Positions 4,453-41,819 of a stretch of DNA of 64,000 nucleotides are shown in pieces. The position numbers and the translations under genes were made by a program. The notes under the pieces are model-generated. The model was not told where the DNA came from. It searched no databases and worked only from the letters and a program-made list of their open reading frames with translations. The stretch is from Thalassia testudinum. Its lineage: Eukaryota > Streptophyta > Magnoliopsida > Alismatales > Hydrocharitaceae. Location of the stretch: contig JAZHRO010000063.1 in NCBI GenBank assembly GCA_037157565.1, forward strand, positions 150,028,501-150,092,500, written 5' to 3'. Positions within the stretch are counted from its first letter, which is position 1, and every line of letters begins with the position of its first letter.

Positions 4453-4469
4453 TGATTGCGCAGCAATCA
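4453..4469 (+). other. S1 LTR-edge hairpin
   Basis: The first 17 bases form a perfect inverted repeat: TGATTGC, loop gca, GCAATCA. The same geometry (7-bp stem, 3-base loop) occurs at the LTR start of GyB and GyD with different stem sequences. Confidence 0.8.
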
Positions 4470-4900
4470 TAGGTCTTAATTGGCCTAGATTAAGTTAGGA
4501 CTTAGCATAAGTTAGGGTTATTCATGTATGCATACGCATTATCTGCATCTTTACTGCTTTCCTTTAGCTATGCATAAAATAATGTTATAATGTGCTGATT
4601 AAGTGCATTATGTCGATTGCAGGGAATAAGCTGATCAGGAGCTAGATCTGAAGCTGGATCAGGAATAACGGGAGTTGTAGTAGAGCTGGAGCAGAAGGCC
4701 TAGTTTAGATGTAGGAATAATAATGTAAGGGGGTTAAAGGTTTTCTATTCTATTAAGTAGAAATAAAGCAGTAAAATGTGAAGAGCTTAGGTCCATCCTA
4801 GCCCTAGGATAGCCTAGAGACTTCCCCAAGCCTTAGCCACCCTTAGATTAGGTCACAACACCCTAGGAAGCCCTAAAACCCTAGTTCCAACCCTTCTCTG

Positions 4901-5129
4901 GACATCCAGATAAGTTTTAAGACGTCCAGGACCCTTAGCCAACTCCCGCACACTTCAAACCCACTTCTGCAGTGTTATTGGATGTCCAAACACTTTGTCA
5001 GACGTCTAATTTCTGTAGAATACCCAAAACAAAACCTGAAATCCTTCCTGACTCTGATTGGACATCCAGACAACAAGTCTAGACTTTTGATTTTTGAGTA
5101 TAAGACGTCTGATTCTATAATTAGACGTC
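4901..5129 (+). promoter_or_regulatory. S1 array of paired GACGTC-like hexamers, 20-bp spacing
   Basis: Hexamers start at 4901 (gacatc) and 4921 (gacgtc), at 4981 (gatgtc) and 5001 (gacgtc), and at 5104 and 5124 (both gacgtc). Each pair is exactly 20 bp apart. A fourth, decayed pair may start at 5061 (gacatc) with a poor partner at about 5081. The array lies about 700-920 bp upstream of the TATA box, so in U3. GACGTC is the palindromic C-box core bound by plant bZIP factors (established knowledge). Use as an enhancer here is inference. Confidence 0.65.
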
Positions 5130-5590
5130 TGATACTACTCTCCAATTCCTGTTTTGAGATTTAAGCCTTGATCTTGGATCTCTAGGTCCCTAAACCCAAT
5201 TCCAACCCCATAGGAACCTAAATTAAGGTGCCCTAATCCTAGTACATCACCTCTAAACCTCCCTAAGGACCTAATTAGGTCCTCACTAAACCTAATTGAC
5301 TTGGATCTTAGTCAATTCCATCAGCCTATTCAATTGGACTCATTGAGTCCAATTGAGCCCTGATCTCAGCACACACTGTCCAAGTGGACTCAGTGAGAGT
5401 CCAATTGACCTAGACCTGACTTAATTGAGTTGTTTTACTCTCAATTAAGTTTCCACACATCCAATTAAACTTGTATTAAGTTTAATTGCACTTTACCTTA
5501 GTGAATTAGGGTTTATAACCCTAATTTGAGACTACCTTGACCTAAACCCACTAGAACCCAACCTAATCAACCTAGCCACCTAAGTTTCGA

Positions 5591-5622
5591 CCCACACACA
5601 CCCACACACACCCACACACACC
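5591..5622. repeat. Microsatellite (CCCACACACA)n
   Basis: Three 10-bp units of a CA-rich repeat inside solo LTR S1, upstream of its TATA box. Probably replication slippage. Confidence 0.9.
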
Positions 5623-5824
5623 ATCCACACGAAAATATCTAGCCTAGAGTTCTCTAGAACTCTCTACCAAGTGTGGTTGCCTTGGTTGAGCCATTCAATT
5701 TTTAGATCCACATTTAGTGGATCTAAAAACCACCATCAACCCTCTCTCTCTCACTCTCCCACGAGCTCCCACCATAGGCCTCTCTAGAGAATTCCATAAT
5801 TCTCTAGCGAGCTTCCCTTAGGTC

Positions 5825-5833
5825 TATAAAAAG
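5825..5833 (+). promoter_or_regulatory. S1 TATA box
   Basis: TATAAAAAG in a pyrimidine-rich context, about 1370 bp into the LTR and followed by a C/A-rich stretch typical of a plant LTR transcription start. Confidence 0.6.
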
Positions 5834-6611
5834 ACCCCTTGGGTGGCCATTTGCACCCATTCACTCCCTTGGCAATTGCTCTCCATTGGTGCCATTCACG
5901 CCACCTCCACTTAGCCACTCACTTCACCTCCACGAGCTCACTACCACCACCATGGAGGACACCATGCCGGGATGCTAGATCAACCCTACTTCTCTCCAAG
6001 GGTCGGCCTAAGCTACATTGGCCGCCCCTCATTCTCCTCTCGACCACTCCAAGGCCATCAGGGACCACCCCTGAATGCCCTCTATTCTTCTAGCTCTAGA
6101 TCATGCTCTTCATAATCTTTATTGCTTTCATTTACTGCTTAGTAGAGTAGTCTTACTTCTCCCCCAATGATGCATGCGAAATCCCCCCGCTGATTCTTGT
6201 ATGCAATTGTTTTCTGGTAGTTAGATTTAATTTTAGATTTAATTTTAAGCATTCATGTATAAGCTTTCCTCTAGATTTCCTTGTGCAACAACTCTCCCAC
6301 GATGAATGAAATTTCATTTTATATATATATATCTCTTATGTGTTTGAAATCACCTTGAGCTAAATGATTATCATATTTACGTGATTTAAGTGCCTGTTCT
6401 TTAATCGCCTATATATTACGCACCAGCATGTCATTTAAATAAAGTAGAGCGGCTTTAAGATCGATTTCAAAAACAAAAATAACGCCTCCCAGAGACGAAC
6501 AACCGAGACTCAAAGTCTCATTATTTTCAAAATAATATCTTTGTTGGATCGTATTTCGCAACTATACTACGACGCTTTTATCAAAAATGCGATCTACGAT
6601 TTCTCCCAATA

Positions 6612-15202: not shown

Positions 15203-15611
15203 TGTTGGTGCTAGAGCACCACGATCATTTGTTTTGATGATAACAAAACACGTGTTATTTAACATTTGCACTTGGAGTCTTAGATTTCAGGTCAATTGCA
15301 AATGTAGACGTGTTTAGACGGAATTCGAGCTCGCATCCAGGATGGATTGGAGGAGCTTGACGGAAAACAGAAGAGATTCGCGAGGAGCAATATATTGAAG
15401 AAGGAGATGAAGAATAGGATAGATTTCCTTCTCTTGTACTCATTGTATTTTTCGTTTCTTTTGTTGCTCTTTATTTTTGTTACTTAAATTTCTGTTAAAG
15501 AGCCTCCAAGTACCCTAACAGTAGTCCTAGGAACACCCACACAACCATAGGATACTTAGGTTTTCTGTAGAAAACTTAGAAAACCAATATAGGGTTCAAA
15601 CAGAGTTTCCA

Positions 15612-16147
15612 GATGTCTAATTCCCAAATCAGACGTCTGATAAAGTATTTTAAGACGTCTGACTGTTGTTTCAGACGTCTGATAACTATTAGGCTGGACT
15701 TAGTGTTCTGTCTGATGAAATCAGACGTCCAGACCTTAGACCAGACATCTTAGGAGACGTCTAATGACTTTGCCAGACGTCCAATTAGTGGACCGTTGGC
15801 TCTCTTGTTGTACAGTCAAGAATATGACCGTTAGAGCCTTATCAGACGTCCTTAGGCCTTTCCAGACGTCTGATAATTGACCGTTTTGCCTCGGCTGACC
15901 CAAAATCTCTTCTCAGAGATTTTCTAGCCATTGCAACGTTTGGAAATCCATTCCCACAGAAAAAGTAGGTTTCCATACGTCCAAACATAGTGCCAGACGT
16001 CCTATATGTCGTCTGATTAACTTGCACAAGAACCCTGTTTAGATCTGATTCAAGTCAAGGAGAGACCCGCCCAAAATCAGACATCTGACCTTGAAATCAG
16101 ACGTCTTAAAGTGAACTTCCAGACGTCTGATGCCAGAATTAGACGTC
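15612..16147 (+). promoter_or_regulatory. Co1 U3 array: eight pairs of GACGTC-like hexamers at 20-bp spacing
   Basis: Hexamer starts: 15612/15632, 15654/15674, 15724/15744, 15756/15776, 15845/15865, 15976/15996, 16080/16100, 16122/16142. Every pair is separated by exactly 20 bp. Neighbouring pairs are linked by 22 bp (twice) or 12 bp (15744-15756), and an extra half-match at 16008 is 12 bp after 15996. Twelve hexamers are exact GACGTC; the others differ by one or two bases. The longest form is the 12-bp palindrome TCAGACGTCTGA. The array ends about 115 bp before the TATA box. An enhancer role through bZIP-type proteins is inference. Confidence 0.85.
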
Positions 16148-16260
16148 TGATAAGCCTGTCAGAGCAATGATTGTTCCTGATTTCGGGCTGATTCTCTTGG
16201 GCTTTGTTTCCAACGGCTATAGAACCTTTCCTAAGCCTTCCAAAGCCTTCCTGAGGCCTC

Positions 16261-16268
16261 TATAAATA
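16261..16268 (+). promoter_or_regulatory. Co1 5' LTR TATA box
   Basis: TATAAATA, embedded in the inverted repeat CCTCTAT-aa-ATAGAGG. The same palindrome surrounds the TATA box in all four Copia LTRs (see 20079, 25670, 29421). Transcription of the element should start a few tens of bases downstream. Confidence 0.85.
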
Positions 16269-16939
16269 GAGGGGAACCTTTGCAACACAAATACACTAAG
16301 AACACTCACCTAGAGAGACTAAGATACACAAGAAACACTTTGTAATACACTTTCCACTCTCTTGTGTCCTAGCTAGCTCTTGCTCTCCAAGCTCAACCTC
16401 CATTCTCTTGAGAGCAACAAGCTGCTGCGCACCCGCTCTCCCGCCGTTGTTCACAAGAGCGACGTTGTGCCGTCGCGTGGCACACGCATCTGCGTCGTCG
16501 ACGCACTCCTTTCGAAGGGAAGCATCCTATTTCCTATAGAAGCTTAGGTTAAATATTACTTTGTTGGCTCTATAGGATTACTTATTTTATCTTTGTTATT
16601 TGGTTGGGTATTCTCTTTGCGAATTCCCGTCTCCTTCGCGAGACAAAATCCTTCTCGCGGAGAGAAGGGGTTGAGGTACGCTACCCTCATCTAAGTAGCG
16701 TGGTTGTATTGAGGTTGAATCACCCTCGTTTAAAGTGATTCGGTTTAGTGGATTTTGATCAACTTGGTTGATCGGAAAATCCTAACTCGAGAGGGTTAGG
16801 TGGTGGTTTTCACCTGGTTTGGGTTTCCACCTAAAAATACTTTGTGCCTTTTGTGTGATTGTTATTTTGTGAAGATTGTTTATTATTTATTTCCACAATT
16901 GTTACGTCACCCCCTCCTGTTAGGGACGAAACCTACATT

Positions 16940-16950
16940 TGGCATCAGAG
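16940..16950 (+). other. Co1 primer binding site (initiator tRNA-Met)
   Basis: TGGCATCAGAG two bases after the 5' LTR. The canonical plant iMet site begins TGGTATCAGAGC, so there is one change. Co2 keeps TGGTATCAGAGC. Confidence 0.85.
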
Positions 16951-16991
16951 TAGGTCTTGTGAGATCGGAGTAACACCCGGCAAGAGATCAA

Positions 16992-18662
16992 ATGGAGGGA
17001 AGCACATCAGCGATCAAAATATCCGAGGGGCAGTCCACCGTCCGACCACCCTACTTTGACGGGAACAACTACAACTACTGGAAGCTGAGGATGAGGATGT
17101 GGCTTCAAGCCACGGACTTCGCTCTATGGGGACATTGCGAAGCCCCATACGAGATCCCGAAGCGACCCGACGCAGGATACTCGCAGCAGTAGATTCGGGA
17201 ACTCTCGCTCAACGCGAAAGCAATGAACGCGTTGTATTGCGCGCTCAGCCCGGAGGAGTTCAACAGAATCTCGCAATGCGCCACCGCATACGAGATTTGG
17301 CACACACTTGAGGTAACTCACGAAGGTACCTCTAAGGTAAAAACTTCTAAAATTAATTTACTTTCTCAAGAATTTGAATCTTTTTCTATGAAACCTAACG
17401 AGTCTTTAAGTGAGATGAACACTAGGTTCACTCTCATTGTAAATAATTTGAAAGCATTAGGGAAGACCTTCATCAAGGGGGAGCTTCAAGGGAAGCTTCT
17501 TCGTTCCCTTGGACCGGAATGGGAACAGAAAGTCACCGCCATCGAGGAGGCGAACAAAGTAGAGGAGCTCAACATGGAAGATCTCCTAGGCAATCTAATG
17601 GCCTACGAGACTAAGTTGAAGCAGAAGAAGAAGGATACACCGGAGCCCAAACTGAAGAAGACTCCCGCCTTTAGAGCCGCGTCGGATAGCGAGGTAAGTT
17701 CCGACGACGAAGACTTTAGAATTTTACTTAAAAAATTTTCCAAGTTTTGTAGGGAATTAAAGAAAGAGAAAAAGGAGAAGAAGGAAAGGCCGAGATGTTG
17801 CTACCACTGCAACGAGAAAGGGCACCTACGACCAGAGTGCCTTCTTCTCAAAAAGGAGAAGAAGAAGGAAAAGGAAAAGAGATCTAAGAAGAAGGCGTTC
17901 CAAGCCACTTGGGACGATTCCAGCTCGGAGGAAGAAGAAGAAGAAAAAGAAGAAACCGCTTGCTTTGGTTTCATGGCCAGAGGAAGCAATAGCGACAGCG
18001 AAAGCGGAAGCGACTCAGACAATGAGGTAAGTTATGATTTACAAGAAGCTTTTAATGAACTATTTGAGCTTAGTAAATATCTAAAAATAGAAAACAAAAG
18101 CATGAAAAAGAATCTTAGCTTTCTTAAATCTGAAAATGATAGGTTAGAAATAAAACTTAAGGATCTAGAAGCTTGTCCTAAAAATGATAACCTATTATTA
18201 GAAAATCATAATCTCATCAATGAAAATAATAAATTGATTGAAGAAAATGATAGTTTAAAGTTAGAAATTTCTGACTTACAGAGTAAGATGCATACTATAG
18301 AAAAAGAAATTGCATTTCTTAGGGAAAATTCTAACAAATTAATCAACAAAGTTGATAATTTCTATAGCCCTAAGGTTGAGAAAGGATCTCCATCAAGGAG
18401 ACCCGCTAACAGATCCGGATCCAAGCCCACTTGGATACCGAAAAAAGAATTAGAATCTTATTTTGTAGGGTTCAGGGATAATTACAACACAAAGGACTGG
18501 ACCTACAAACTCAAAGCTGGTCAACTCAAGTTGGGAGAACCAAGGAGTAGACTAAGGAGGAGAACAAGAAGACCGACGAGATGGCGAACAAACGACGGAC
18601 CCGCCGCACGTCGACCACCAGATTGGAGACCGGCGCCAATGCCCGGGCCTCCAAGCTACTAA
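16992..18662 (+). pseudogene. gag: Co1 Gag (Copia capsid/nucleocapsid), one in-frame stop
   Basis: ATG at 16992 opens MEGSTSAIKI, as in Co2 (MEGSSSAGRI). N-terminal motif FDGNNYNYWKLRM, then the UBN2-type Copia Gag core. A Lys-rich stretch leads to a CCHC zinc knuckle at 17799-17840 (CYHCNEKGHLRPEC). An acidic Ser/Glu region follows. A long leucine-rich coiled coil comes next (about 18060-18350), then an Arg/Pro-rich tail. A TAG at 17190 replaces a Gln codon kept in Co2; from ATG 17223 the frame is open for 479 codons. The end at 18660 (TAA) is early: Co2 continues to FGSFYWPW, and a small deletion in Co1 removes that ending. It would package element RNA into particles. Confidence 0.88.
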
Positions 18663-19017
18663 TGGGAGCCCCATCCGATGTGGGACCATTCGGGCCATTT
18701 TATTGGCCATGGTAGGTGAGGTAAAAATTCTTGACCCTATCTTTGTTTATCAGTAGCATTTAGATAGGGTGAGTTAAAATTTATGAGCTAATTGTCAATT
18801 TTTAAGGGGGAGATATAAGGTAACTAAATTTCCTTTAGAAAGGAAAAAAAAAAGGGGGGAGGCATTACCTTTGTCAAAAGAAATTTATAGAAGAGCATGT
18901 CTTAAGGGGGAGTTATAGGAAATGTAAAATCAATTAAACCTTTTTGATAATGTCAAAAAGGGGGAGGATTTTCTGCATTATTATTTATGGTTTTGTCATC
19001 ATCAAAAAGGGAGAGAT
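18663..19017 (+). other. Co1 3' internal region with ladder of polypurine tracts
   Basis: Five AAGGGGGAG-like tracts start at about 18803, 18846, 18903, 18954 and 19004, that is, every 43-57 bp. The last (AAAAAGGGAGAGA) directly precedes the 3' LTR and is the likely plus-strand primer. Co2 has the same ladder. No protease or later pol sequence is present. Confidence 0.8.
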
Positions 19018-20755
19018 TGTTGGTGCTAGAGCACCACGATCATTTGTTTTGATGATAACAAAACACGTGTTATTTAACATTTGCACTTGGAGTCTTAGAT
19101 TTCAGGTCAATTGCAAATGTAGACGTGTTTAGATGGAATTCGAGCTCGCATCCAGGATGGATTGGAGGAGCTTGACGGAAAACAGAAGAGATTCGCGAGG
19201 AGCGATATATTGAAGACAGAAGGAGATGAAGAATAGGATAGATTTCCTTCTCTTGTACTCATTGTATTTTTCGTTTCTTTTGTTGCTCTTTATTTTTGTT
19301 ACTTAGATTTCTGTTAAAGAGCCTCAAAGTACCCTAACAGTAGTCCTAGGAACACCCGCACAACCCTAGGATACTTAGGTTTTCTGTAGAAAACTTAGAA
19401 AACCAATATAGGGTTCAAATAGAGTTTCTAGACGTCTAATTCCCAAATCAGACGTCTGATAAAGTATTTTAAGACGTCTGACTGTTGTTTCAGACGTTTG
19501 ATAACTATTAGGCTGGACTTAGTGTTCTGTCTGATGAAATCAGACGTCCAGACCTCAGACCAGACGTCTTAGGAGACGTCTGTGACTTTGCTAGACGTCC
19601 AATTAGTGGACCGTTGGCTCTCTTGTTGTACAGTCAAGAATATGACCATTAGAGCCTTATCAGACGTCCTTAGGCCTTTCCAGACGTCTGATAATTGACC
19701 GTTTTGCCTCGGCTGACCCAAAATCTCTTCTCAGAGATTTTCTAGCTGTTGCAACATTTGGAAATCCATTCCCACAGAAAAAGTAGGTTTCCATACGTCC
19801 AAACATAGTGTCAGACGTCCTGTATGTCGTCTGATTGACTTGCACAAGAACCCTGTTTAGATCTGATTCCAGTCAGGGAGAGACCCGCCCAAAATCAGAC
19901 GTCTGACCTTGAAATTAGACGTCTTAAAGTGAACTTCCAGACGTCTGATGCCAGAATTAGACGTCTGATAAGCCTGTCAGAGCAATGATTGTTCCTGATT
20001 TCGGGCTGATTCTCTTGGGCTTTGTTTCCAACAGCTATAGAACCTTTCCTAAGCCTTCCAAAGCCTTCCTGAGGCCTCTATAAATAGAGGGGAACCTTTG
20101 CAACACAAATACACTAAGAACACACACCTAGAGAGACCAAGATACACAAGAAACACTTTGTAATACACTTTCCACTCTCTTGTGTCCTAGCTAGCTCTTG
20201 CTTTCCAAGCTCAACCTCCATTCTCTTGAGAGCAACAAGCTGCTGCGCACCCGCTCTCCTGTCGTTGTTCACGAGAGCGACGTTGCGCCGTCGCATGGCA
20301 CACGCATCCGCGTCGTCGACGCACTCCTTTCGAAGGGAAGCATCCTATTTCCTATAGAAGCTTAGGTTAAATATTACTTTGTTGGCTCTATAGGATTACT
20401 TATTTTATCTTTGTTATTTGGTTGGGTATTTGCTTTGCGAATTCCCGTCTCTTTCGCGAGACAAAATCCTTCTCGTGGAGAGAAGGGGTTGAGGTATGCT
20501 ACCCTCGTCTAAGTAGCGTGGTTGTATTGAGGTTGAATCACCCTCGTTTAAAGTGATTCGGTTTAGTGGATTTTGATCAACTTGGTTGATCGGAAAATCC
20601 TAACTCGAGAGGGTTAGGTGGTGGTTTTCACCCGGTTTGGGTTTCCACCTAAAAATACTTTGTGCCTTTTGTGTGATTGTTATTTTGTGAAGATTGTTTA
20701 TTATTTATTTCCGCAATTGTTACGTCACCCCCTCCTGTTAGGGATGAAACCTACA
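19018..20755 (+). mobile_element. Co1 3' LTR
   Basis: 1738 bp, nearly the same as the 5' LTR, with a 4-bp insertion near 19216 and scattered substitutions. It keeps the paired-hexamer array (about 19430-19970), the TATA palindrome (TATAAATA at 20079-20086) and the CTACA end. It is followed by target duplication CTCTT at 20756-20760. Confidence 0.93.
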
Positions 20756-24149: not shown

Positions 24150-25047
24150 TGATGACTCTACATATAATGATGATAATTCTATCAATTAGAGGCATTTTTG
24201 AGGGCACATATGCATTAATGTCATATTATAGTGGGCTTGGGAGCAATGCATGCACATTGTGTATTATCTACATTTAGATTGCTTTAAATCAATGTTTAAT
24301 GACCTTGTGTACGGTGCACATTGAAATAGGTCTTAGATGAGCAATTGGATAGTATGGATGGATCCAAATTGACAAACGGAGTCTAATGAACTCAAAATCA
24401 CCTCAATTCAACCTTTGTAGCTCCCACAACAAGTCCAAGAAGTTTTGACTGAAGATCAGATGATCAACGGTCCTTGTCGCGCCACGTGGCACCCATTTTG
24501 GTCTCCATCATTAGCCAGCAGCGCCCATAGCTTCCTCTCATCACGAGCTCATGAGATCGGGGCCGTTGGATACGAATCCAATGGTCACTGAGGGGCCACA
24601 TCGCTCGTGATCTCGACCTCATGATCTCCATCAAACAGTGGCAACAACACGAGAGGGAAATGCAAAAACACGACATCTTCTCATTTGTAGCATAGCGGTC
24701 CATGCCTCAACCAACACACGGTAGGTATATGTTCAAAACCTCGCAAGGGGCACAATCACAGCGAAGAACGCGCAGCCAAAATTGAGCTGCCCGATCTCCA
24801 TCGAGCGACCCTGATAGTGGCTATGTGGCATCTCTGGAAGCGTACGATTCATCCACATGCGGTTTGAGGCCTACTCTGAGGCTCGATAGTACGCGTGCCC
24901 AAGGCACGATCTTGCGAGCAATCTCAGCCCTCCAAGTGCAATCCAAAGGCCATGATTTCTTTTTGCACGATAAGTGTGATGGGAGTGATGGATAAGCCAT
25001 CTGGACACATCGATGGCTGTTCGATGGCGATCTGCTATGTTGATCCT
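24150..25047 (+). mobile_element. GyC 5' LTR, first part (U3)
   Basis: Starts TGATGACTCTACATATAATG. The first 600 bp align with the reverse complement of S2 (shared cgccacgt, atcaacgg and cgaacggagtc-like blocks) and more weakly with the GyA 3' LTR. It is cut at 25047 by Co2. It contains the tRNA-like module at 24688-24741. The frames 24464-24703 and 24821-25123 are chance or run into Co2. Confidence 0.8.
24688..24741 (+). other. tRNA-like module in GyC LTR (A-box and B-box)
   Basis: TAGCATAGCGG (24688 onward) as A-box and GTTCAAAACCTC (24731 onward) as B-box. The spacing places the B-box near tRNA position 51. It occupies the same relative place in U3 as in GyA and S2. There is no closing acceptor stem. 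Confidence 0.5.
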
Positions 25048-26720
25048 GAAATTCCCTACTAGGAGGGGGTGACGTAATAATTGCGGAAATAAATATAAAC
25101 AATCTCACAAAATAGACAATCACTCAAGTACACAAGTATTTTTAGGTGGAAACCCAAACTGGGTGAAAACCACCACCTAACCCTCTCGAGTTAGGATTTT
25201 CCGATCAACCAAGTTGATCAAAATCCACTAAACGAATCACTTTAAACGAGGGTGATTCAACCTCAAATACAACCATACTACAAGTGCGAGGGTAGCGTTC
25301 CTCAACCCCTTCACTTCACGAGAAGGATTTTGTCCCTCGAAGGAGACGGGAATTTGCAAAGCGAATACCCAATCAAATAACAAAGATAAAAGAACAATAA
25401 TCCTATAGAGCCAACAAAGTAATTTTAAACCTAGCTTCTATAGGAATTAGGAAACTCCTCTTTGAAAGGAGTGCGTCGGCGACGCGGATGCGTGAACAAC
25501 ACGACGGCGCTACGTCGCTCTCGTGAACTACGATGGGAGAGCGGGTGCGCAAAGCTTGATGCTCTGAAGATGAAGAATTAGAGCTTGGGGAGAAAGAGAG
25601 TCTTTTTGGACACAAAAGAGTGTGAAAGTGTGTAACTAGGTGTGTGTTTATGTTGCAAAGGTTCCCCTCTATTTATAGAGGCCTCAGGAAGGCTTAGGAA
25701 AGGTTCCATAGCCGTTGGGTGCAAAGCCAAAGAGAATCAACCCGAAATCAGGAACAATCATTGCACTGACAGGGTTATCAGACGTCTAATTATGGCATCA
25801 GACGTCTGGAAGACCACTTTAAGACGTCTGATTTCAAGGTCAAACGTCTGATTTCATGCGGGTTCCTTCCTGACTTGAATCAAATCTAAACAGGGTTCTT
25901 GTGCAAGTCCATTAGACGACATACAGCACGTCTAGCACTATGTGTGGACGTCTGGAAACCTACTTTTTCGTGGGAATGGATTTGCAACGGCTAGAAAATC
26001 TCTGAGAAGAGATTTTCGGGTCAGTCGAGGCAAAACGGTCAATTATCAGACATCTGGAAGGGCTTAAGGACGTCTGATAAGGCTCTAACAGTCATATCCT
26101 CGAGTGTTTGCTAAGAGAGCCAACGGTCCACTAATTGGACGTCTGGCAAAGACATCAGGCGTCTCCTAAGAAGTCTGGTATAAGGTCTGGACGTCTGATT
26201 TCATCAGACAGAATTAACTTGTCCAGCCTAACTGTTATCAGACGTCTAAATCAACAGTCAGACGTCTTAAAACACTTTATCAGACGTTTGATTTGGGAAT
26301 TAGACGTCTGGAAACTCTGTTTGAACCCTACATTGGTTTTCTAAGTTCTCTACAGAAAACCTAAGTATCCTAGGGTTGTGCCGGTGTTCCTAGGACTACT
26401 GTTAGGGTACTTTGAGGCTCTTTAACATAATTTTCTAAGGAAATAAGGAGCAAGAAAATAAAGATAAAAGTACATGAAAAGGAATAAAATGGAATTCTAT
26501 CCTATTCTTATTGTCCTTCCATCTTCAATCTATCGCTCCTCGCGAATCCCCTCTGTTCTCCATCAAGCTCCTCCAATCCGTCTTGGATGCGAGCTCGAAT
26601 TCCGTTTAATCACGTCTACATTTGCAATTGACCTGAAATCTAAGACTCCAAGTGCAAATGTTAAATAACACGTATTTTGTTATCATCAAAACATATGATC
26701 GTGGTGCTCTAGCACCAACA
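25048..26720 (-). mobile_element. Co2 3' LTR (left copy)
   Basis: 1673 bp. In plus orientation it starts TGAAATTCCC and ends GCACCAACA. TATA box at 25670-25677 (minus). The U3 array of paired hexamers spans 25781-26308 with the same spacing as Co1: 25781/25801/25823/25843, 25927/25947, 26049/26069, 26138/26158, 26170/26190, 26241/26261/26283/26303. Confidence 0.92.
25781..26308 (-). promoter_or_regulatory. Co2 left LTR paired-hexamer array
   Basis: Eight pairs, each exactly 20 bp apart, with the same 22-, 12- and 20-bp linkers as Co1 read in reverse. Several hexamers have decayed by one base (aacgtc at 25843, gacgtt at 26283, ggcgtc at 26158) while the spacing is unchanged. Confidence 0.85.
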
Positions 26721-27040
26721 ATCTCCCCCTTTTTGATGATGACAAAACCATAAATAAAAATGCAAAAAATCCTCCCCCTTTTTGACATTATCAAAAAGGT
26801 TTAATTGATTTCCTATAACTCCCCCTTAAAACATGCTCTTCTATAAATTTCTTTTACCAAAGGTAATGTCCTCCCCCTTTTTTTATAACAACAAGATAGC
26901 TATTATTTTTCTCCCCTTTCTAAAGGAAATTTAGCTACCTTATATCTCCCCCGTAAAAATTGACAATTAGCTTATAATTTTTTTTTGCTCCCCCTATCTA
27001 AATGCTTATGATAAAAGGGTAGGGTAAAGGGTTTTTACCT
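26721..27040 (-). other. Co2 3' internal region with ladder of polypurine tracts
   Basis: On the minus strand, AAGGGGGAG-like tracts appear on the plus strand as CTCCCCCTT-like runs at about 26722, 26771, 26820, 26871 and 26946, mostly 49-51 bp apart. This is the same arrangement as Co1. The tract touching the LTR (26721-26735) is the likely primer. Confidence 0.8.
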
Positions 27041-27043
27041 CAC

Positions 27044-28780
27044 CTACCATGGCCAATAAAATGACCCAAATGGTGGTGGTGGATGCCACATCGGATGGGG
27101 CTCCCATCCGTAGCCTGGAGGCCCGGGCATTGGCGCCGGTCTCCAGTCTGGTGGTCGACGTGCGACGGGTCCATCATTTGTTCGCCATCTCGTCGGTCTT
27201 CTTGTTCTCCTCCTTGGTCTACTCCTTGGTTCTCCCAACTTGAGTTGACTAGCTTTGAGCTTGTAGGTCCAGTCCTTTGTGTTGTAGTCATCCCTGAAAC
27301 CTACAAAACAAGATTCCAAATTTTTCTTCGGTATCCAAGTGAGCTTGGATCCGGATCTGTTAGCGGGTCTCCTTGACAGAGATCCTTTCTCAACCTTAGG
27401 GCTATAAAAATTATCTACTTTATTGATTAATTTGTTGGAGTTTTCCCTAAGACATGCGATTTCTTTTTATGTAATATCCATCTTAGTCTTTAAATCAGAA
27501 ATTTCTATTTTTAGACTAACATTTTCCTCAATCAATTTATTATTTTCATTGATGAGGTTATGATTTTCTAATAATAGGTTATCATTTTTAGGACAAGCTT
27601 CTAGATTCTTATGTTTTATTTCTAACCTATCATTTTCAGATTTAAGAAAGCTAAGATTCTTTTTCATACTTTTATTTTCTCTCTTAACTGCTTTACTAAC
27701 TTCAAAAAGTTCATTAAAATCTTCTTGTAAGTCGTAACTTACCTCGTTGTCTGGGTTGCTTTTGCTTTCGCTGTCTCTTCCTCTGGCCATGAAACCGAAG
27801 CAAGCGGTTTCTTCTTCTACAGACTTTTCTTCTTCTTCTTCCTCTGAGCTGGAATCGTCCCAAGTGGTTTGGAACGCCTTCTTCTTAGATCTCTTTTCCT
27901 TTTCCTTCTTCTTCTCCTTTTTGAGAAGAGGGCACTCTGGTCGTAGGTGCCCTTTCTCGTTGCAGTGGTAGCAACATCTCGGGCTTTCCTTCTTCTCCTT
28001 TTTCTCTTTCTTTAATTCCCTACAAAACTTGGAAAATTTTTAAAGTAAAATTCTAAAGTCTTCATCGTCGGAACTTACCTCGCTATCCGACGCAGCTCTG
28101 AAGGTGAGAGTCTTCTTCGGTTTAGGCTCTGGTGTATCCTTCTTCTTCTGCTTCAACTTAGTCTCGTAGGCCATTAGATTGCCTAGGAGATCTTCCATGT
28201 TGAGCTCCTCCACTTCGTTTGCCACCTCGATGGCGGTGACTTTCTGTTCCCATTCCGGTCCAAGGGAATGAAGAAGCTTCCCTTGAAGCTCCCCCTTGAT
28301 GAAAGTCTTCCCTAAAGCTTTCAAGTTATTTACAATGAGAGTGAACCTAGTGTTCATCTCACTTAAAGATTCGTTAGATTTCATTGAAAAAGATTCAAAT
28401 TCTTGAGAAAGTAAATTAATTTTAGAGGTTTTTACCTTAGAGGTACCTTCGTGAGTTACCTCAAGTGTGTGCCAAATCTCGTATGCGGTGGCACATTGCG
28501 AGATTCTGTTGAACTCCTCCGAGCTGAGCGCGTAGTAGAGGGCGTTCATGGTCTTTGCGTTCAAAGAGAGTTCACGAATTTGTTGTTGCAAGTAGCCTCC
28601 CACAGGTTTTTCTGGGATCTCTAATGGTGTCTCGCACCTGGCCCAAATTGTGAAGTCATTGGCTTGAAGCCAAGTCTTCATCCGCAGCTTCCAGTAGGGG
28701 TAGTTGCTCCCGTCGAAGAATGGCAGACGAATCGTAGACTTGCCCTCGAAAATCCTACCCGCGGAACTGCTCCCCTCCAT
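27044..28780 (-). pseudogene. gag: Co2 Gag, degenerate
   Basis: ATG at 28780 (minus) opens MEGSSSAGRI. The UBN2-type core is intact to a stop at 28040-28042 (TAA where Co1 has Lys). The CCHC zinc knuckle follows near 27960 (CYHCNEKGHLRPEC), then an acidic region, the leucine-rich coiled coil (27467-27790) and a second stop near 27467. The tail (27044-27319) is Arg/Pro-rich and ends FGSFYWPW, the natural C-terminus that Co1 has lost. A stretch with Trp and Pro at the very end is unusual for a Gag. Confidence 0.85.
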
Positions 28781-28816
28781 AGATCTTCTTGCTTGGTTGT
28801 TATGCCGAAACAGCAA

Positions 28817-28833
28817 GACCTGCTCTGATACCA
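28817..28833 (-). other. Co2 primer binding site (initiator tRNA-Met)
   Basis: On the minus strand TGGTATCAGAGCAGGTC, two bases after the 5' LTR end. The first 12 bases match the canonical iMet site. Confidence 0.9.
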
Positions 28834-28835
28834 AC

Positions 28836-30480
28836 TGAAATTCCCTACTAGGAGGGGGTGACGTAATAATTGCGGAAATAAATATAAACAATCTCACAAA
28901 AGAGACAATCACACAAGTACACAAGTATTTTTAGGTGGAAACCCAAACCGGGTGAAAATCACCACCTAACCCTCTCGAGTTAGGATTTTCCGATCAACCA
29001 AGTTGATCAAAATCCACTAAACGAATCACTTTAAACGAGGGTGATCCAACCTCAAACCCCTTCTCTTCACGAGAAGGATTTTGTCCCTCGAAGGAGACGG
29101 GAATTCGCAAAGCGAATACCCAACCAAATAACAAAGATAAAAGAACAATAATCCTATAGAGCCAACAAAGTAATTTTAAGCCTAGCTTTTATAGGAATTA
29201 GGAGACTCCCCTTTGAAAGGAGTGCGTTGGCGATGCGGATGCGTGAACAACACGACGGCGCTACGTCGCTCTCGTGAACTACGGTGGGAGAGCGGGTGCG
29301 CAAAGCTTGATGCTCTCAAGATGAAGAATTAGAGCTTGGAGAGAAAGAGAGTCATTTTGGACACAAAAGAGTGTGAAAGTGTGTAACTAGGTGTGTGTTT
29401 GTGTTGCAAAGGTTCCCCTCTATTTATAGAGGCCCTAGGAAGGCTTTGGAAGGCTTAGGAAAGGTTCCATAGCCGTTGGGTGCAAAGCCCAAGAGAATCA
29501 ACCTGAAATTAGGAACAATCATTGCACTGAAAGGGTTATCAGATGTCTAATTATGGCATCAGACATCTGGAAGACCACTTTAAGACGTCTGATTTCAAGG
29601 TCAGACGTCTGATTTCGTGCGGGTTCCTTCCTGACTTGAATAAGATCTAAACAGGGTTCTTGTGCAAGTCCATTAGACGACATACAGGACGTCTGGCACT
29701 ATGTGCGGACGTCTGGAAACCTACTTTTTCGTGGGAATGGATTTGCAACGGTTAGAAAATCTCTGAGAAGAGATTTTCGGGTCAGTCAAGGCAAAATGGT
29801 CAATTATCTGACGTCTGGAAGGGCTTAAGGACGTCTGATAAGGCTCTAACGGTCATATCCTCAAGTGTTTGCTAAGAGAGCCAACGGTCCACTAATTGGA
29901 CGTCTGGCAAAGACATCAGACGTCTCCTAAGACATCTGGTATAAGGTTTGGACGTCTGATTTCATCAGACAGAATTAACTTGTTCGGCATAACTGTTATC
30001 AGACGTCTGAATCAACAGTCAGACGTCTTAAAACACTTTATCAAACGTCTGATTTGGGAATTAGACGTCTGGAAACTCTGTTTGAACCCTACATTGTTTT
30101 CTAAGTTCTCTACAGAAAACCTAAGTATCGTAGGGTTGTGCTGGTGTTCCTAGGACTACTGTTAGGGTACTTTGAGGCTCTTTAACATAATTTTCTAAGG
30201 AAATAAATAGCAAGAAAATAAAGACAAAAGTACATGAAAAGGAATAAAATGGAATTCTATCCTATTCTTCTTGTCCTTCAATCTTCAATCTATCGCTCCT
30301 CGCGAATCCCCTCTATTCTCCATCAAGCTCCTCCAATCCGTCCTGGATGCGAGCTCGAATTCCATTTAATCACGTCTACATTTGCAATTGACCTGAAATC
30401 TAAGACTCCAAGTGCAAATGTTAAATAACACGTGTTTTGTTATCATCAAAACAAATGATCGTGGTGCTCTAGCACCAACA
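28836..30480 (-). mobile_element. Co2 5' LTR (right copy)
   Basis: 1645 bp, in plus orientation TGAAATTCCC to GCACCAACA. TATA box 29421-29428 (minus). The paired-hexamer array lies at about 29540-30075 with the same spacing. It lacks the ATACAACC... segment present at about 25266 in the left copy. Confidence 0.92.
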
Positions 30481-35821: not shown

Positions 35822-38572
35822 TGATGAGAACCTCATCATGAGCCCTAACTAGTTCATTTTGACTTTAGAAAGTAAACAAAAGCTCTTACATAACCTAAAG
35901 GAAGGCCTAATTCAAGGGAATACTATTCTGGGAAGGAAATAAGAACTTAAGGGTAAAACTGTAATTTTACCATTGTAGTACATAAACGGGATTTCCTAGG
36001 GGCTAAACATAGGTCAGTTGGACTTAATAAGAGGAAAAGTGGGATGGTTCAGTTAGAAAAGTGTTATCGTGAGATTTAAGAATTAAATGACATTCTATAA
36101 CCCTAAAACAAACCCACTCAATTTCAAAAGGTTCTGGTTAGGACGAAAATCAACTAAACCCTCTAAAATTCATGGAAAAATATCCCTTAGGGTTTAGAAC
36201 CTTCAATTTGGCCTTTGGAACCTATTTTGACCTAGATTGGGATCCTAAATCAGTATTTGACCTAATTTGGGTTTTTGTGCAAAATATCCATTCAAACGTA
36301 GTCAAACCTAAAATCCAACTTCACCATTGGATTCCTTATGTTCAAATTAGGTTTTTACCAAAATTTGGGCCTATGGGAAGGTCATCTTGACCAACTTTGC
36401 AAAATAGTCCACCCAATTACATTCTGACCCCTAACTTTTGAAAACCCTTGCACAGACCCCACTATCTTCCTCTTCACTCTTTACATTCAGGTCCCTCCAC
36501 CATTACAACAGAGGAATCCTACTCCAGCGAGGATTTGAGGAGGATTTCTCCCCAAATCCTCAGAGATCTCCCAGATTTGGAAGGAAGATTCTCTGAGGAA
36601 TTCTTCACTGTCTGAACATGATCCTAGGATTCGATTCACACACAATCTCTGACGTGAACACTCGAGAGTATGGGTATCTCACAGATTTCCTACTCCGATG
36701 AAGTTTCCATGCTTGGAGGCTTGCCTTCTAGGCACATGGCCCTCCGCCAGTGCCTATAAAAGTTGCCCCAGATCCTCTTGGCCATCTTAAGCTTGAATTG
36801 GCCTTAGAATTCCCCCAAATTTCTTCATTCCTCGTCTCTGGCCAATTAACCGCAAGCTCCGGTGATTCCTCCTCCCTCCTCTCGTCGCTCTGCCACAATA
36901 CCAGTGGTAGAGTTATCTCTGCCTTGCTCTTTCGCGTCGCGCCGTACCCGCGCGTGCCTCTCCAACCCCTTCCTCGTCGCCGTCATCCTCACCTCAGGGC
37001 CTTATTCCCCGACGAAAGCACATACGCGCCGCCCGTCCCCTCTACGCAGATAAGTTCCTTTGCCTCTACTCTTCATTTTCCCTCACTTAATTTCGTAAAA
37101 CACCCCTCGATAGCCACTGTCCACCTCCGTCTCCCTCATCTCCGGCCGACCACCGGCGAGGCGTTCCCATCACTCCCCCACTCCACACGCCTCGCCACCT
37201 ACCTCATCACCTTCGCCATCACTCATTGATCATCCTCTGCCCCTTTACCAACCACCACACATGCCCTACACCCTCACCTAACACACGCACCTTCACGGCC
37301 ACAGAGTGACCTAGGCACGCACGCCTAGGCCGCCCCACAGCCAACCAACCCCCATTTCACCTTCGCTGTGACATAGCGAAGCTTCCCAAGTTTTTTGACA
37401 GGGCCACGAGGTCATGTGCATGCATTTCAGGTTCGCGCCTTTGCCGCCATAAGTGAAGGCATGAAGCAGCAAGCTCGCGAGCTCCAGGTCATTCTATTCT
37501 TGGTTGAGACACCCCAGGTGCGTGGAACCCTCCTGCAATCCTTTTGCACCTGGAAATCAAGGCCTGCATCGCTTGCAGCTCCTCAATTGGATGGGTGTCT
37601 TCCCTGCGGGTGCAATGAAGCTGGTGGGACACTTTAGTCCCACCTCGAGCGATAAGTCATTTATATTATTTTTGTGTTTCTCTCTTATCGCCTCAAGTAA
37701 AACGGGGTGAGGTCCCTCGCCCACGCCCCTACCTCGTTTGTGACACACACTCATGCGGACCTAGTACCCGACTAGTATACCCTGCACTCCTCACGCACCA
37801 CCCACGTCGGTGCACTTGGACCTGAGCACGCGAAACCCGACCCGATTACCTAGCTCTGGGAGAGTGAACCTAAGAGCGAAATAGAAAGAGATAGATGCGA
37901 GGGAGGGTAGGGGTAGGTTTTGCTCTATGCTATGTAGTGAAAGAAGGAGAGAAGGAAGAAGCAGCTAAGGAAGAAAGAAGAAGGAAGGACTTAGCTACAA
38001 AAGCATAGGTTGAAGAAGGAAGGAAGACTTGAAGGCAAAGGCAGAAGACAAGGAGGCCAAAGCTGAGGAAAGCCAGGTACAGAAGAAGAAAAGGCTTTAG
38101 AAAGAAGAAGGAAGGAGAAGGTGCAGCCAAGCAAAGAATCAAAGGCACAGGAAAGCTAAGGAAACAAGAGAAGAAAAAGAAGATAGAAGAAGAAGAGTGG
38201 CCGTAGAGAAAGAGAAAGAAGAGAGAAGATCAGAAGGCAAAGTCTGAAATCAGTGAAGAAAAGATGAAGAAGAATAGAGAAAGCTTTGGATTGTAGCAGC
38301 AAAGACTTAAGATGTCTGATTTTACTTCAGACGTCCATTTTTTTGAGCTTCTCTATACATTGACCTCATTTTTACTTTATAATTTTGATTGGATTGGTCA
38401 TTGCATTTTATAAAATTGAAAGTTGTGATTCTAGTTTTTAAATACCAATTTGCACCCTGTGTTCGACCTCGGATACCTAGGTTTTTGAGTTATAAATTCT
38501 TATTTGTCTTCGCGGTGATTTCATTTATACTGGAACGAACATCTTTTTAAAATCGATTTCGCCCTGTTAACA
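35822..38572 (+). mobile_element. GyD 5' LTR
   Basis: 2751 bp from TGATGAG to TTAACA. Terminal hairpin 35822-35838 (TGATGAG, aac, CTCATCA). TATA box at 36755. An intact copy of the GyE target site lies near 36530-36560 (gaggatttctcccc). A long G/A-rich stretch spans 37880-38290. One GACGTC-like pair (38311 and 38330) lies near the 3' end. A 159-codon frame after the TATA box (36750-37229) has biased Ser/Pro/Leu composition and no recognised domain. Confidence 0.9.
36755..36762 (+). promoter_or_regulatory. GyD 5' LTR TATA box
   Basis: TATAAAAG, followed by gttgccccagatcc. The same box and context recur in the 3' LTR at 62494-62501. Confidence 0.8.
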
Positions 38573-38575
38573 TTT

Positions 38576-38593
38576 TGGCGCCGTTGCAGGGGA
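38576..38593 (+). other. GyD primer binding site (tRNA-Asp)
   Basis: TGGCGCCGTTGCAGGGGA, one change from the tRNA-Asp complement, starting three bases after the LTR. The best primer site in the window. Confidence 0.9.
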
Positions 38594-39680: not shown

Positions 39681-41819
39681 ATGGCACAACCCATTGAAGA
39701 AGAGAATAACCTTGAGCACCAACTTCAGCACCTAACTAATCTCGTCCAAAACTTTGTAAACCCACCATAGTGTCCTATGATGCGAGATCACTATAATCCT
39801 ACTGCGGTGGCAATTGAGCCTCGAGTCCAAATACTGGCTGGAGGTCCTGATTCTGAACTCAAGCCCAATATGATTCATGCCATACCAAAATTCCATGGGC
39901 TTAACTCCGAGGATCCATTCAGGCACATTAAGCGGCTCAAACATCTAGCCCAGACCTTTGGGTCAAATGCGCAAAACCAGGATATTATACTCATGAAGAT
40001 GTTTTCTTTCTCCCTCTTGGACAAGGCTGCTCATTGGTATGAAACTCAGACTCATCCGATCAACACATGGGATGAACTTCAGTCCGAATTTTTGAAGAAG
40101 TTCTTCCCCGTTGGCCGGACAAATGCCTTGCACCACCAGATCACTCATTTCACTCAAAAATTGGGAGAACCTCTTCATAAGGCATGGGATCGATTCTTAG
40201 ATCTCATGCGAAAGTGCCCCCATCACGGAGTTCCTAAATGGGAACAAGTCTAGTCTTTTTACCAGGGACTCTGTGAAGACATTTGATTATTCATCAATGC
40301 AACCTGTGGAGGAAACATCATGGGTCAACATGAGGACACGATGTGGGAGATTCTTAAAAATATGTGCGAGAGCTCCATTAATAATGACTCCATGGGCTTA
40401 TTCGACCGAACGAATGCTCGCGTATCGATGAATCTTAAGGGAGCACATGAGATGCAGGACCTGTCCACATCCGTCAACTTGGAATTGATGGCCAGTCGGT
40501 TGGACAAGGTCTCTATCATAAAGAAGAAGGTGGATGAGTTGACTCAGCATCTGCAGCGAGCCACCTCTATGTAGAACTCTTTTGCACGGCCACCTCTTGC
40601 GAGGGAAACTGTGCAGAACAATTATCACTAATCTTCTCAGGGGATGGACTCGTATCTACCACCGTCTGACTCTCGAACCGGAGGGACCTTCGATCCACTC
40701 TATTCTAGTTGGGGGAACTCTGAACCCTTGTATTCTGACTTTCCTAAGTCTCCTCAGACCTGCGAGGACCTCAACGCCATCCAGAATTACCCATTCTTCA
40801 ATACCTACAACCTTGGATGGCAAAATCATTCCAACTTTCAGTGGACAGGAAATTCTCAGACTCAAAGACCACCTTATCAACCTCGTCCACAAGCTCCTCA
40901 TCCATATCAGCCGCCTTAGCCTTGGCCTAACCCCACCTATCAATCTGGGCCAAACCAGGATCAAATGACTCTTATCCTTCAAGCACTGGCTAACATTCAG
41001 AAGATGAATGCGGCAATGTAGAAATAGCACAAGGATGAGATCATAGAGGTTCGTAATCAACTCGCCCAGATGGTGAATTCCCACCAATCTGGCACCCTTC
41101 CTTCTCAACCTCTGCCAAACCCAAATAACATGCCAACCCAGATGCACGTTATGAACCCAAATCCAGGCCACACACAAATGATTTATCAGGCCCCTTCTAT
41201 TCCATCACCGGATAGGATGGAAGCTTCGACATCTTATGCGGGACTTTAGCAGCAGCAACCCATCTTACTAAACCCAAACCAAAGCCAAGTAGGATTAAAC
41301 TCCGTAACAACTCATAGTGGTAAAGCAACCCAAGAACCACATCATCCAAACCACTTCAAGACCGGTAGTAACCCAAGCCCTAGGATAGTTATCTAGGATA
41401 CCCCTATCCTAGATCAAGAACCTGGACCTATTCTAGAGGAACCAACCAGGGTTCCATTTCCCGAGGCCTTGACCAAGGGAAAGAGGATAACCAAACCTGT
41501 GGCTCCTGAGGAGGATCTGGTCAAGCTCTTTGAATAGGTCCAGATAAACATCCCCTTGATGGATGAAATCCGCCATGTACTGGCTTACACACGATTTCTG
41601 AAAGACGTATGTACACCCAAGCGTAAGCCACGAACCAAAAGTGGGAGTCTGATCGTACTGTCAGAGCAAGCTAGCTCTGTAATCTTGAGTAAACTCCCAC
41701 CCAAGGCTAAAGACCCAGGTACTTCCCTGATTTCATGTAAAATTGGTGAAACCCAATTTGATAGAGCCTTATTAGACCTAGGTAACTCCATAAACCTAAT
41801 AACCTACATCCCTCCTTGA
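39681..41819 (+). pseudogene. gag: GyD gag-protease, one frame with eleven stops and no frameshift
   Basis: ATG at 39681 (MAQPIEEENN). The Gag core follows (HAIPKFHGLNSEDPFRHI, LDKAAHWYE, FLKKFFPVGRTNALH), then a Gln/Pro-rich region and the pre-protease segment (VQINIPLMDEIRHVLAY). The protease active site is D-L-G-N-S at 41775-41789 (Ala changed to Asn). The frame is constant over 713 codons. Stops are nine TAG (39768, 40251, 40572, 40917, 41019, 41025, 41247, 41394, 41535), one TGA (40284) and one TAA (40629). Nearly all sit where context or relatives suggest Gln or Arg. No zinc knuckle is visible. Confidence 0.88.

Follow-up and report, generated by a model that had tools for sequence, protein, structure and literature searches.

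Copia elements and a solo LTR in the window

The window, a 64,000-nucleotide stretch of the Thalassia testudinum genome, contains two Copia elements, Co1 and Co2, that lie on opposite strands, and a solo LTR with little similarity to theirs. Their main features are as follows.

4453..6611, plus strand: solo LTR, 2,159 bp, TG...TA, inside Ty3-type reverse-transcriptase sequence, TSD GCTAC
15203-20755, plus strand: Co1, whole element, with the TSD CTCTT flanking both sides
15203..16937, plus strand: 5′ LTR of Co1, a gag-only Sirevirus-like element, from the LTR alignment; ends TGTTGG...CCTACA
16260..16269, plus strand: TATA box, CTATAAATAG, with TATA at 16261
16907..16919, plus strand: C-rich stretch TCACCCCCTCCTG near the 3′ end of the Co1 5′ LTR, resembling the Sirevirus polyC integrase signal
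17193..18662, plus strand: Co1 gag ORF, 489 aa, with a Retrotran_gag_2 domain and a CCHC knuckle
18805..19015, plus strand: Co1 polypurine tracts (PPTs), AGGGGGAG at 18805, 18905, and 18959, and a terminal AGGGAGAG at 19008, followed by AT/TG
19018..20755, plus strand: Co1 3′ LTR, with the palindrome array repeated at 19431-19965
30480-25047, minus strand: Co2, whole element, TSD GGATC
25047..26720, minus strand: Co2 3′ LTR (alignment row Co2_5)
28836..30480, minus strand: Co2 5′ LTR (alignment row Co2_3), followed by GTTGG and TATCAGAGC

In both elements, LTRs about 1.65 to 1.74 kb long enclose an internal region of some 2.1 kb. The single long plus-strand frame in the internal region of Co1 is gag, the next longest frames being 89 and 83 aa, and neither the ORF listing nor the Pfam scan of this 2.1-kb region revealed a pol gene of the Sirevirus lineage. 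The CCHC knuckle of the Co1 gag has the form CX2CX4HX4C at ORF residue 203, and the only signs of a coiled coil are leucine-rich sequence and a subthreshold match to TSC22. The Pfam scan of the Co2 internal region covered 28043-28930. The gag-matching stretch of Co2 (27044-28930) is divided, within one frame, into three stop-to-stop ORFs that adjoin one another, indicating a gag interrupted by stops, unlike the uninterrupted Co1 gag at 17193-18662. Gag searches found no relatives among viral contigs or prokaryote genome contigs. A further gag search gave 73 hits, the best at 78% and from a metagenome; neither these nor the best 120 of 2,559 matches of a Ty3 search included a near-identical sequence of a named plant.

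The published Sirevirus account, in the parts that treat these features, describes a PPT octamer AGGGGGAG that begins 10 bp before the 3′ LTR and is followed by AT/TG, additional PPT copies clustered ahead of the 3′ LTR, a 5′ LTR/PBS junction of CA/ATTGG TATCAGAGC, an integrase signal rich in polyC some 21 bp away from the end of the LTR, an inverted repeat around the junction of PPT and 3′ LTR, and a large gag with a CCHC knuckle and a coiled coil downstream (PMC2829016). We found most of the Sirevirus cis features in Co1 and Co2, namely the PPT cluster, AT/TG, the PBS (altered in Co1), polyC, and the TATA box. The terminal PPT of Co1 is one change away from AGGGGGAG, and that of Co2 reads AGGGGGAG, AT, and TG at 26730, with further copies ahead of the 3′ LTR at 26995, 26878, 26826, and 26779; one extra copy lies within each gag (17476 in Co1 and 28296 in Co2). 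The Co2 junction, CA/GTTGG TATCAGAGC, differs from the Sirevirus form at the first intervening base, and the Co1 junction, CA/TTTGG CATCAGAGT, has three differences more. Each of the four LTRs has CACCCCC close to its end (16908, 20726, 25071, and 28860), a likeness to the published description that was judged by eye. By these features, Co1 and Co2 are gag-only, nonautonomous, Sirevirus-like Copia elements; we call them only "Sirevirus-like" because pol is absent and the placement rests on the cis features and gag.

Geometry of the palindrome pairs

The upstream part of the Co1 5′ LTR, from 409 to 939 bp after the LTR start, carries 16 copies of a palindromic site with the core CAGACGTCTG, which the flanking bases lengthen to the 14-bp palindrome ATCAGACGTCTGAT at the best sites. 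The base at −1 is A in all 16 sites, and that at +6 is T or C. The array lies upstream of the TATA box, whose TATA starts 119 bp past the start of the last hexamer. The sites form the following pairs, given with their 14-bp footprints (−4 to +9 relative to each hexamer) and with no strand assigned.

15608..15641: pair 1, hexamers at 15612/15632
15650..15683: pair 2, hexamers at 15654/15674, forming a 20-22-20 quartet with pair 1
15720..15753: pair 3, hexamers at 15724/15744
15752..15785: pair 4, hexamers at 15756/15776, 12 bp beyond pair 3
15841..15874: pair 5, hexamers at 15845/15865
15972..16005: pair 6, hexamers at 15976/15996, TACGTC in Co1 versus GACGTC in Co2
16076..16109: pair 7, hexamers at 16080/16100
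16118..16151: pair 8, hexamers at 16122/16142

All eight 20-bp pairs that the initial annotation had reported for this LTR are present, as are the 20-22-20 quartets at both ends of the array. The annotation also stated that every GACGTC-like site is paired. Of the 17 hexamers that differ from GACGTC at no more than one position (15600 to 16160), 16 are; GTCGTC at 16008 has no partner 20 bp away. A 12-bp link in the middle of the array also exists, although as a single instance (15744 to 15756). Twelve of the 16 paired hexamers are exact GACGTC, the others being GATGTC (15612), GACATC (15744 and 16080), and TACGTC (15976).

The LTRs of Co2 likewise retain all eight pairs at 20 bp, as had been claimed, with bases decayed in several of them. 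Across the four aligned LTRs of Co1 and Co2, the spacing is exactly 20 bp in 31 of the 32 pair instances. The exception is pair 4 of the Co1 3′ LTR, which has a spacing of 19 bp (19575/19594) owing to a 1-bp deletion, the only alignment gap within a pair. The distances between adjoining Co1 pairs, on the other hand, vary from 12 to 111 bp (12, 22, 22, 50, 69, 84, and 111 bp). The proposal of a fixed pair spacing was thus borne out, with a single length inside pairs, free lengths between them, and the same 20 bp recurring in another LTR (see below). When 16 sites were placed at random in 531 bp, a calculation that ignores a possible origin by duplication, the mean number of pairs at 20 bp was 0.44, and eight or more occurred in none of 20,000 draws. 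The eight-base spacer interiors of the eight Co1 pairs are 27% identical to one another, against 25.5% expected from the U3 composition. The array as a whole showed no clear helical phasing at 10.5 bp (mean vector length of 0.33 for the 16 sites); a purely descriptive scan of periods peaked at 0.74 at 10.15 bp.

We found the same pair unit in the solo LTR, and a weaker candidate near the end of a Ty3 LTR (again with no strand assigned).

4897..4930: solo-LTR pair, 4901/4921 (GACATC and GACGTC), 20 bp
4977..5010: solo-LTR pair, 4981/5001 (GATGTC and GACGTC), 20 bp
5057..5091: possible decayed solo-LTR pair, 5061/5082 (GACATC and GACTTT), 21 bp
5100..5133: solo-LTR pair, 5104/5124 (GACGTC and GACGTC), 20 bp
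38307..38339: possible single pair, weak, 38311/38330, 19 bp, near the end of a Ty3 LTR

For seven sites in the 224-bp span of the solo LTR, three pairs at 20 bp have a P of 0.0004, or 0.011 when any spacing from 8 to 60 bp is allowed. When the solo LTR was compared with the Co1 LTR (blastn, word size 7, E up to 1), 16 of the 19 matches overlapped sites in both LTRs, and the best of them spans a whole pair (32 bp, 91% identity; 16121-16152 around pair 8 of Co1 against 5103-5134 of the solo LTR). The other three matches lie off the sites in one or both LTRs (E values of 0.011, 0.47, and 0.47); the first of these, 35 bp long, overlaps a solo-LTR site, whereas its Co1 side falls in the stretch that separates pair 5 from pair 6. 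The similarity between the two LTRs is therefore mostly one of pair units, yet is not strictly confined to them. Against the whole window (blastn, E of 1e-3), the solo LTR gave five matches besides itself, all of them to pair units of the four Co1 and Co2 LTRs.

The solo LTR lacks the Sirevirus marks that were looked for, a TGTTGG start and a four-C run in the last 100 bp, and about 700 bp separate its sites from its TATA-like sequence downstream, versus 119 bp in Co1. It may nevertheless be a very divergent Sirevirus LTR. Its first sites at 4901, 4981, and 5061 are exactly 80 bp apart, suggesting an 80-bp unit above the 20-bp pairing.

Elsewhere in the window, with the four Copia LTRs set aside, no pair spacing is as common as 20 bp at any of the five thresholds tried. 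At threshold 8 there are seven such pairs, compared with a mean of 0.66; only three of these seven are strong, all in the solo LTR. The pair at 38311/38330 has a P of 0.008 for any pair at 19 to 21 bp among 13 sites and was chosen post hoc. It lies about 240 bp before a PBS-like TTTGGCGCCGTTGC (about 38570-38590) in a Ty3 element whose gag ORF is at 39771. The carriers in the sample are two elements, Co1 and Co2, and one solo LTR.

No strict pair pattern was found in the viral contigs. Pairs of AGACGTCT at free spacing occur there in at least 120 stretches and, judged by this number, are probably chance matches. One contig, IMGVR_UViG_3300050009_000063 (1-1200), has units resembling GAGACGTCTC/GAAACGTCTC, with a period of about 21 bp, in two dense arrays flanking a stretch of about 300 bp without units; no link to the plant elements was shown. 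The met box of Escherichia coli MetJ is AGACGTCT, and a MetJ met box was rejected as a reading of the sites, since Co1 and Co2 are plant elements.

Base changes at the sites and candidate roles

We sorted the differences between Co1 and Co2 in the region 15600-16260 into those fixed between both LTRs of Co1 and both LTRs of Co2, which predate insertion, and those private, which arose after it, counting ungapped columns and excluding 23 gapped ones. The 8-mer RGACGTCY, which was tested first, covers 128 columns with 1 fixed and 14 private changes, against 40 fixed and 36 private changes in the other 512 columns (P of 0.0019 for fixed changes and 0.0012 for fixed versus private); when CpG columns were left out, the P values were 0.013 and 0.058. 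The sole fixed difference in the 8-mers is the TACGTC/GACGTC of pair 6. The contrast, weaker for the 8-mer, was stronger for the 14-bp footprints from −4 to +9, an extent picked after viewing the position-by-position profile: the 221 footprint columns contain 2 fixed and 24 private changes, and the remaining 419 contain 39 and 26 (Fisher P of 5e-6 for fixed changes and 4e-6 for fixed versus private). None of 660 other circular shifts of the footprints contained as few fixed changes.

The initial annotation had proposed testing whether base changes spare the hexamers. Changes that predate insertion did spare the sites, affecting 1 of their 128 columns and 40 of the 512 others, whereas the sites have decayed since. 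The stretch depleted of fixed changes spans 14 bp, longer than the hexamer that it took as the unit. By raw counts, private changes hit a larger share of the site columns than of the surroundings. In the footprints, 18 of 23 single private changes have the C-to-T or G-to-A form that methylated silent copies should show, and elsewhere 18 of 26 do; methylation-type decay adds private changes at the sites and so favors the fixed-versus-private ratio. The footprint pattern is as expected if selection acted while the Co1 and Co2 lineages were active, with the two elements being a small sample. Its further test, for a depletion of indels inside pairs, did not reach significance: the four fixed indels all fall outside pairs, which has a chance of about 1 in 5 as reckoned by hand, and one of the two private indels is inside a pair.

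These observations bear differently on several explanations. The array may have arisen by tandem duplications of an ancestral pair, its spacing persisting without any function since indels are rare. The orientation bias common to all 16 sites (an invariant A at −1, with T or C at +6), the 42-bp period in both quartets, and the nonsignificant indel depletion are in line with such a history. Against it, the spacer interiors are at background identity, yet equal in length in all eight Co1 pairs, the lineage-level changes avoid the 14-bp footprints, and the dissimilar solo LTR has the identical 20-bp spacing; we consider a history by duplication improbable. Another explanation places the function in RNA, with the palindromes pairing in U3-containing transcripts to form hairpins that would serve as a small-RNA source or in another RNA role, and with the 20 bp reflecting loop geometry. 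The 561-nt array folds far below its shuffles (z of −10.6, none of 100 shuffles as low), as do several pairs folded singly (z below −4 in four of the eight Co1 pairs and −2.3 in a fifth; −1.7, −2.7, and −5.9 in the solo LTR), and small-RNA hotspots at maize Sirevirus palindrome clusters are mentioned in passages of two papers that cite Bousios 2016 (PMC5311732, PMC10760457). However, any two palindromes fold together, so that a strong fold may follow from the sites alone, and hairpin formation does not require exact spacing. Pairs 3, 4, and 6 fold like shuffles (z of +0.85, −0.87, and +0.44) though they are still at 20 bp, and stems are hardly more complementary within a pair than between different pairs (10.2 versus 10.0 of 14, permutation fraction of 0.38, for 11 pairs, eight from Co1 and three from the solo LTR), nor are the flanks clearly so (inner, 1.3 versus 1.0 of 3, fraction of 0.22; outer, 1.8 versus 2.3 of 5, fraction of 0.98). 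An RNA role as the explanation of the spacing thus seems rather unlikely to us, although DNA-binding and RNA roles may coexist.

Among the DNA-binding explanations, the initial annotation had suggested plant bZIP C-box sites in pairs, with a spacing also seen in as-1-type elements; the bZIP would be of the TGA or HY5 type. The four arrays do contain many ACGT motifs (14, 16, 13, and 13), and 20 bp is about two helical turns. TGACG is the core of TGA/as-1 sites, yet three of the four arrays lack it and the other has a single copy, which disfavors the as-1/TGA version. All 16 Co1 sites have A at −1, and the as-1-like 12-bp link occurs once. We regard paired TGA- or HY5-type sites as unlikely. 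The outer bases of ATCAGACGTCTGAT are also not known to be a bZIP preference. The sites may still be bZIP C-boxes in a broader sense.

The explanation that we prefer, with a probability of roughly 0.6, is that the array is a variant of the Sirevirus repeated-motif (RM) array in a Sirevirus-like Copia element, and that its palindrome pairs are candidate sites for a dimeric host factor controlling LTR transcription. It draws on four direct observations: how the pairs are spaced, the Sirevirus-like anatomy of the elements, the scarcity of pre-insertion changes within the footprints, and the pair unit in an LTR with little other similarity. A host DNA-binding protein would bind each 14-bp palindrome as a dimer, the two sites of a pair would be occupied together, about two helical turns apart and thus roughly on one face, and occupancy of the pair would activate or gate LTR transcription. 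Where there was a "repeated motif, function unclear," the pair geometry, the depleted 14-bp stretch, and the second carrier LTR now give a protein screen something definite to aim at.

We also consider, more tentatively and at less than even odds, that this two-palindrome 20-bp module has been adopted by separate LTR families of one genome, whether by convergence or by module transfer. The families concerned would be the Sirevirus-like Copia elements, the solo-LTR family, and perhaps a third, Ty3, element. If true, a single host protein complex that bridges two dimers would read the module, which would serve these families as a common cis-regulatory currency. The findings also prompt one to ask whether distinct element families within a genome hold promoter modules in common or exchange them.

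Comparison with known systems

In as-1/ocs elements, which are bound by TGA bZIPs, two ACGT-type sites stand at a short fixed spacing. The Co1 array resembles them in having two ACGT-type sites per unit but differs in its spacing (20 bp versus 12) and in the absence of TGACG from three of the four arrays. Protein-read arrays of short motifs in the noncoding DNA of mobile elements are known from the VANDAL/VANC anti-silencing system. Co1 has another motif, belongs to another type of element, and does not share the encoded factor, its only long frame being gag.

The closest resemblance is to the RM boxes of Sireviruses. Sirevirus LTRs are already known to carry palindromic RM arrays ahead of the TATA box; the relevant parts of that description report many palindromes, at least eight per element, mostly in the upper LTR half and upstream of a conserved TATA, and state that RMs are absent from classic retrotransposons (Bousios et al. 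2010, PMC2829016). The Co1 array, with 16 palindromes in the upper LTR half upstream of its TATA box, is of the same kind. The nearest RM in those parts is that of Usier, GTCGGACGTCCGAC, whose center GGACGTCC is of the RGACGTCY type, as in Co1 and Co2 (PMC2829016). The Co1 array starts 409 bp from the LTR start, which fits the published arrays, starting at 200 to 400 bp, well enough. The core differs from what is reported (PMC2829016, in part). Twelve of the 13 published RMs have a CGG-CCG core, the exception being Tnd-1, whereas the Co1 core CAGACGTCTG is CAG-CTG without CGG-CCG; CGG occurs once and CCG four times in the 561-bp Co1 array. The RM cluster bounds a CpG island in Sireviruses. In Co1, the observed/expected CpG ratio is 0.76 in the array, where the GC content is 43.5%, 0.78 in the whole LTR, and 0.53 in the window, so that the array is no richer in CpG than its LTR.

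Relative to the RM descriptions found, the new features are the strict 20-bp pairing and its sharing by a dissimilar LTR, neither of which appears in the main-text parts of the Sirevirus RM description (PMC2829016). Likewise, the titles and abstract beginnings of the open-licence papers among the matches listed contained no description of the ATCAGACGTCTGAT palindrome with 20-bp pairing. A further relative in arrangement is the maize Sirevirus palindrome CACCGGACNNNGTCCGGTG, which also forms clusters in the LTRs, as in Co1 and Co2, but differs from the Co1 palindrome; in the passages concerned, it is treated as an RNA structure or small-RNA source, with no mention of paired spacing (PMC10760457, PMC5311732). 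According to one of these passages, CACCGGACNNNGTCCGGTG is also found in structured regions of maize Helitrons, which provides a precedent for the sharing of a palindrome across element types (PMC10760457).
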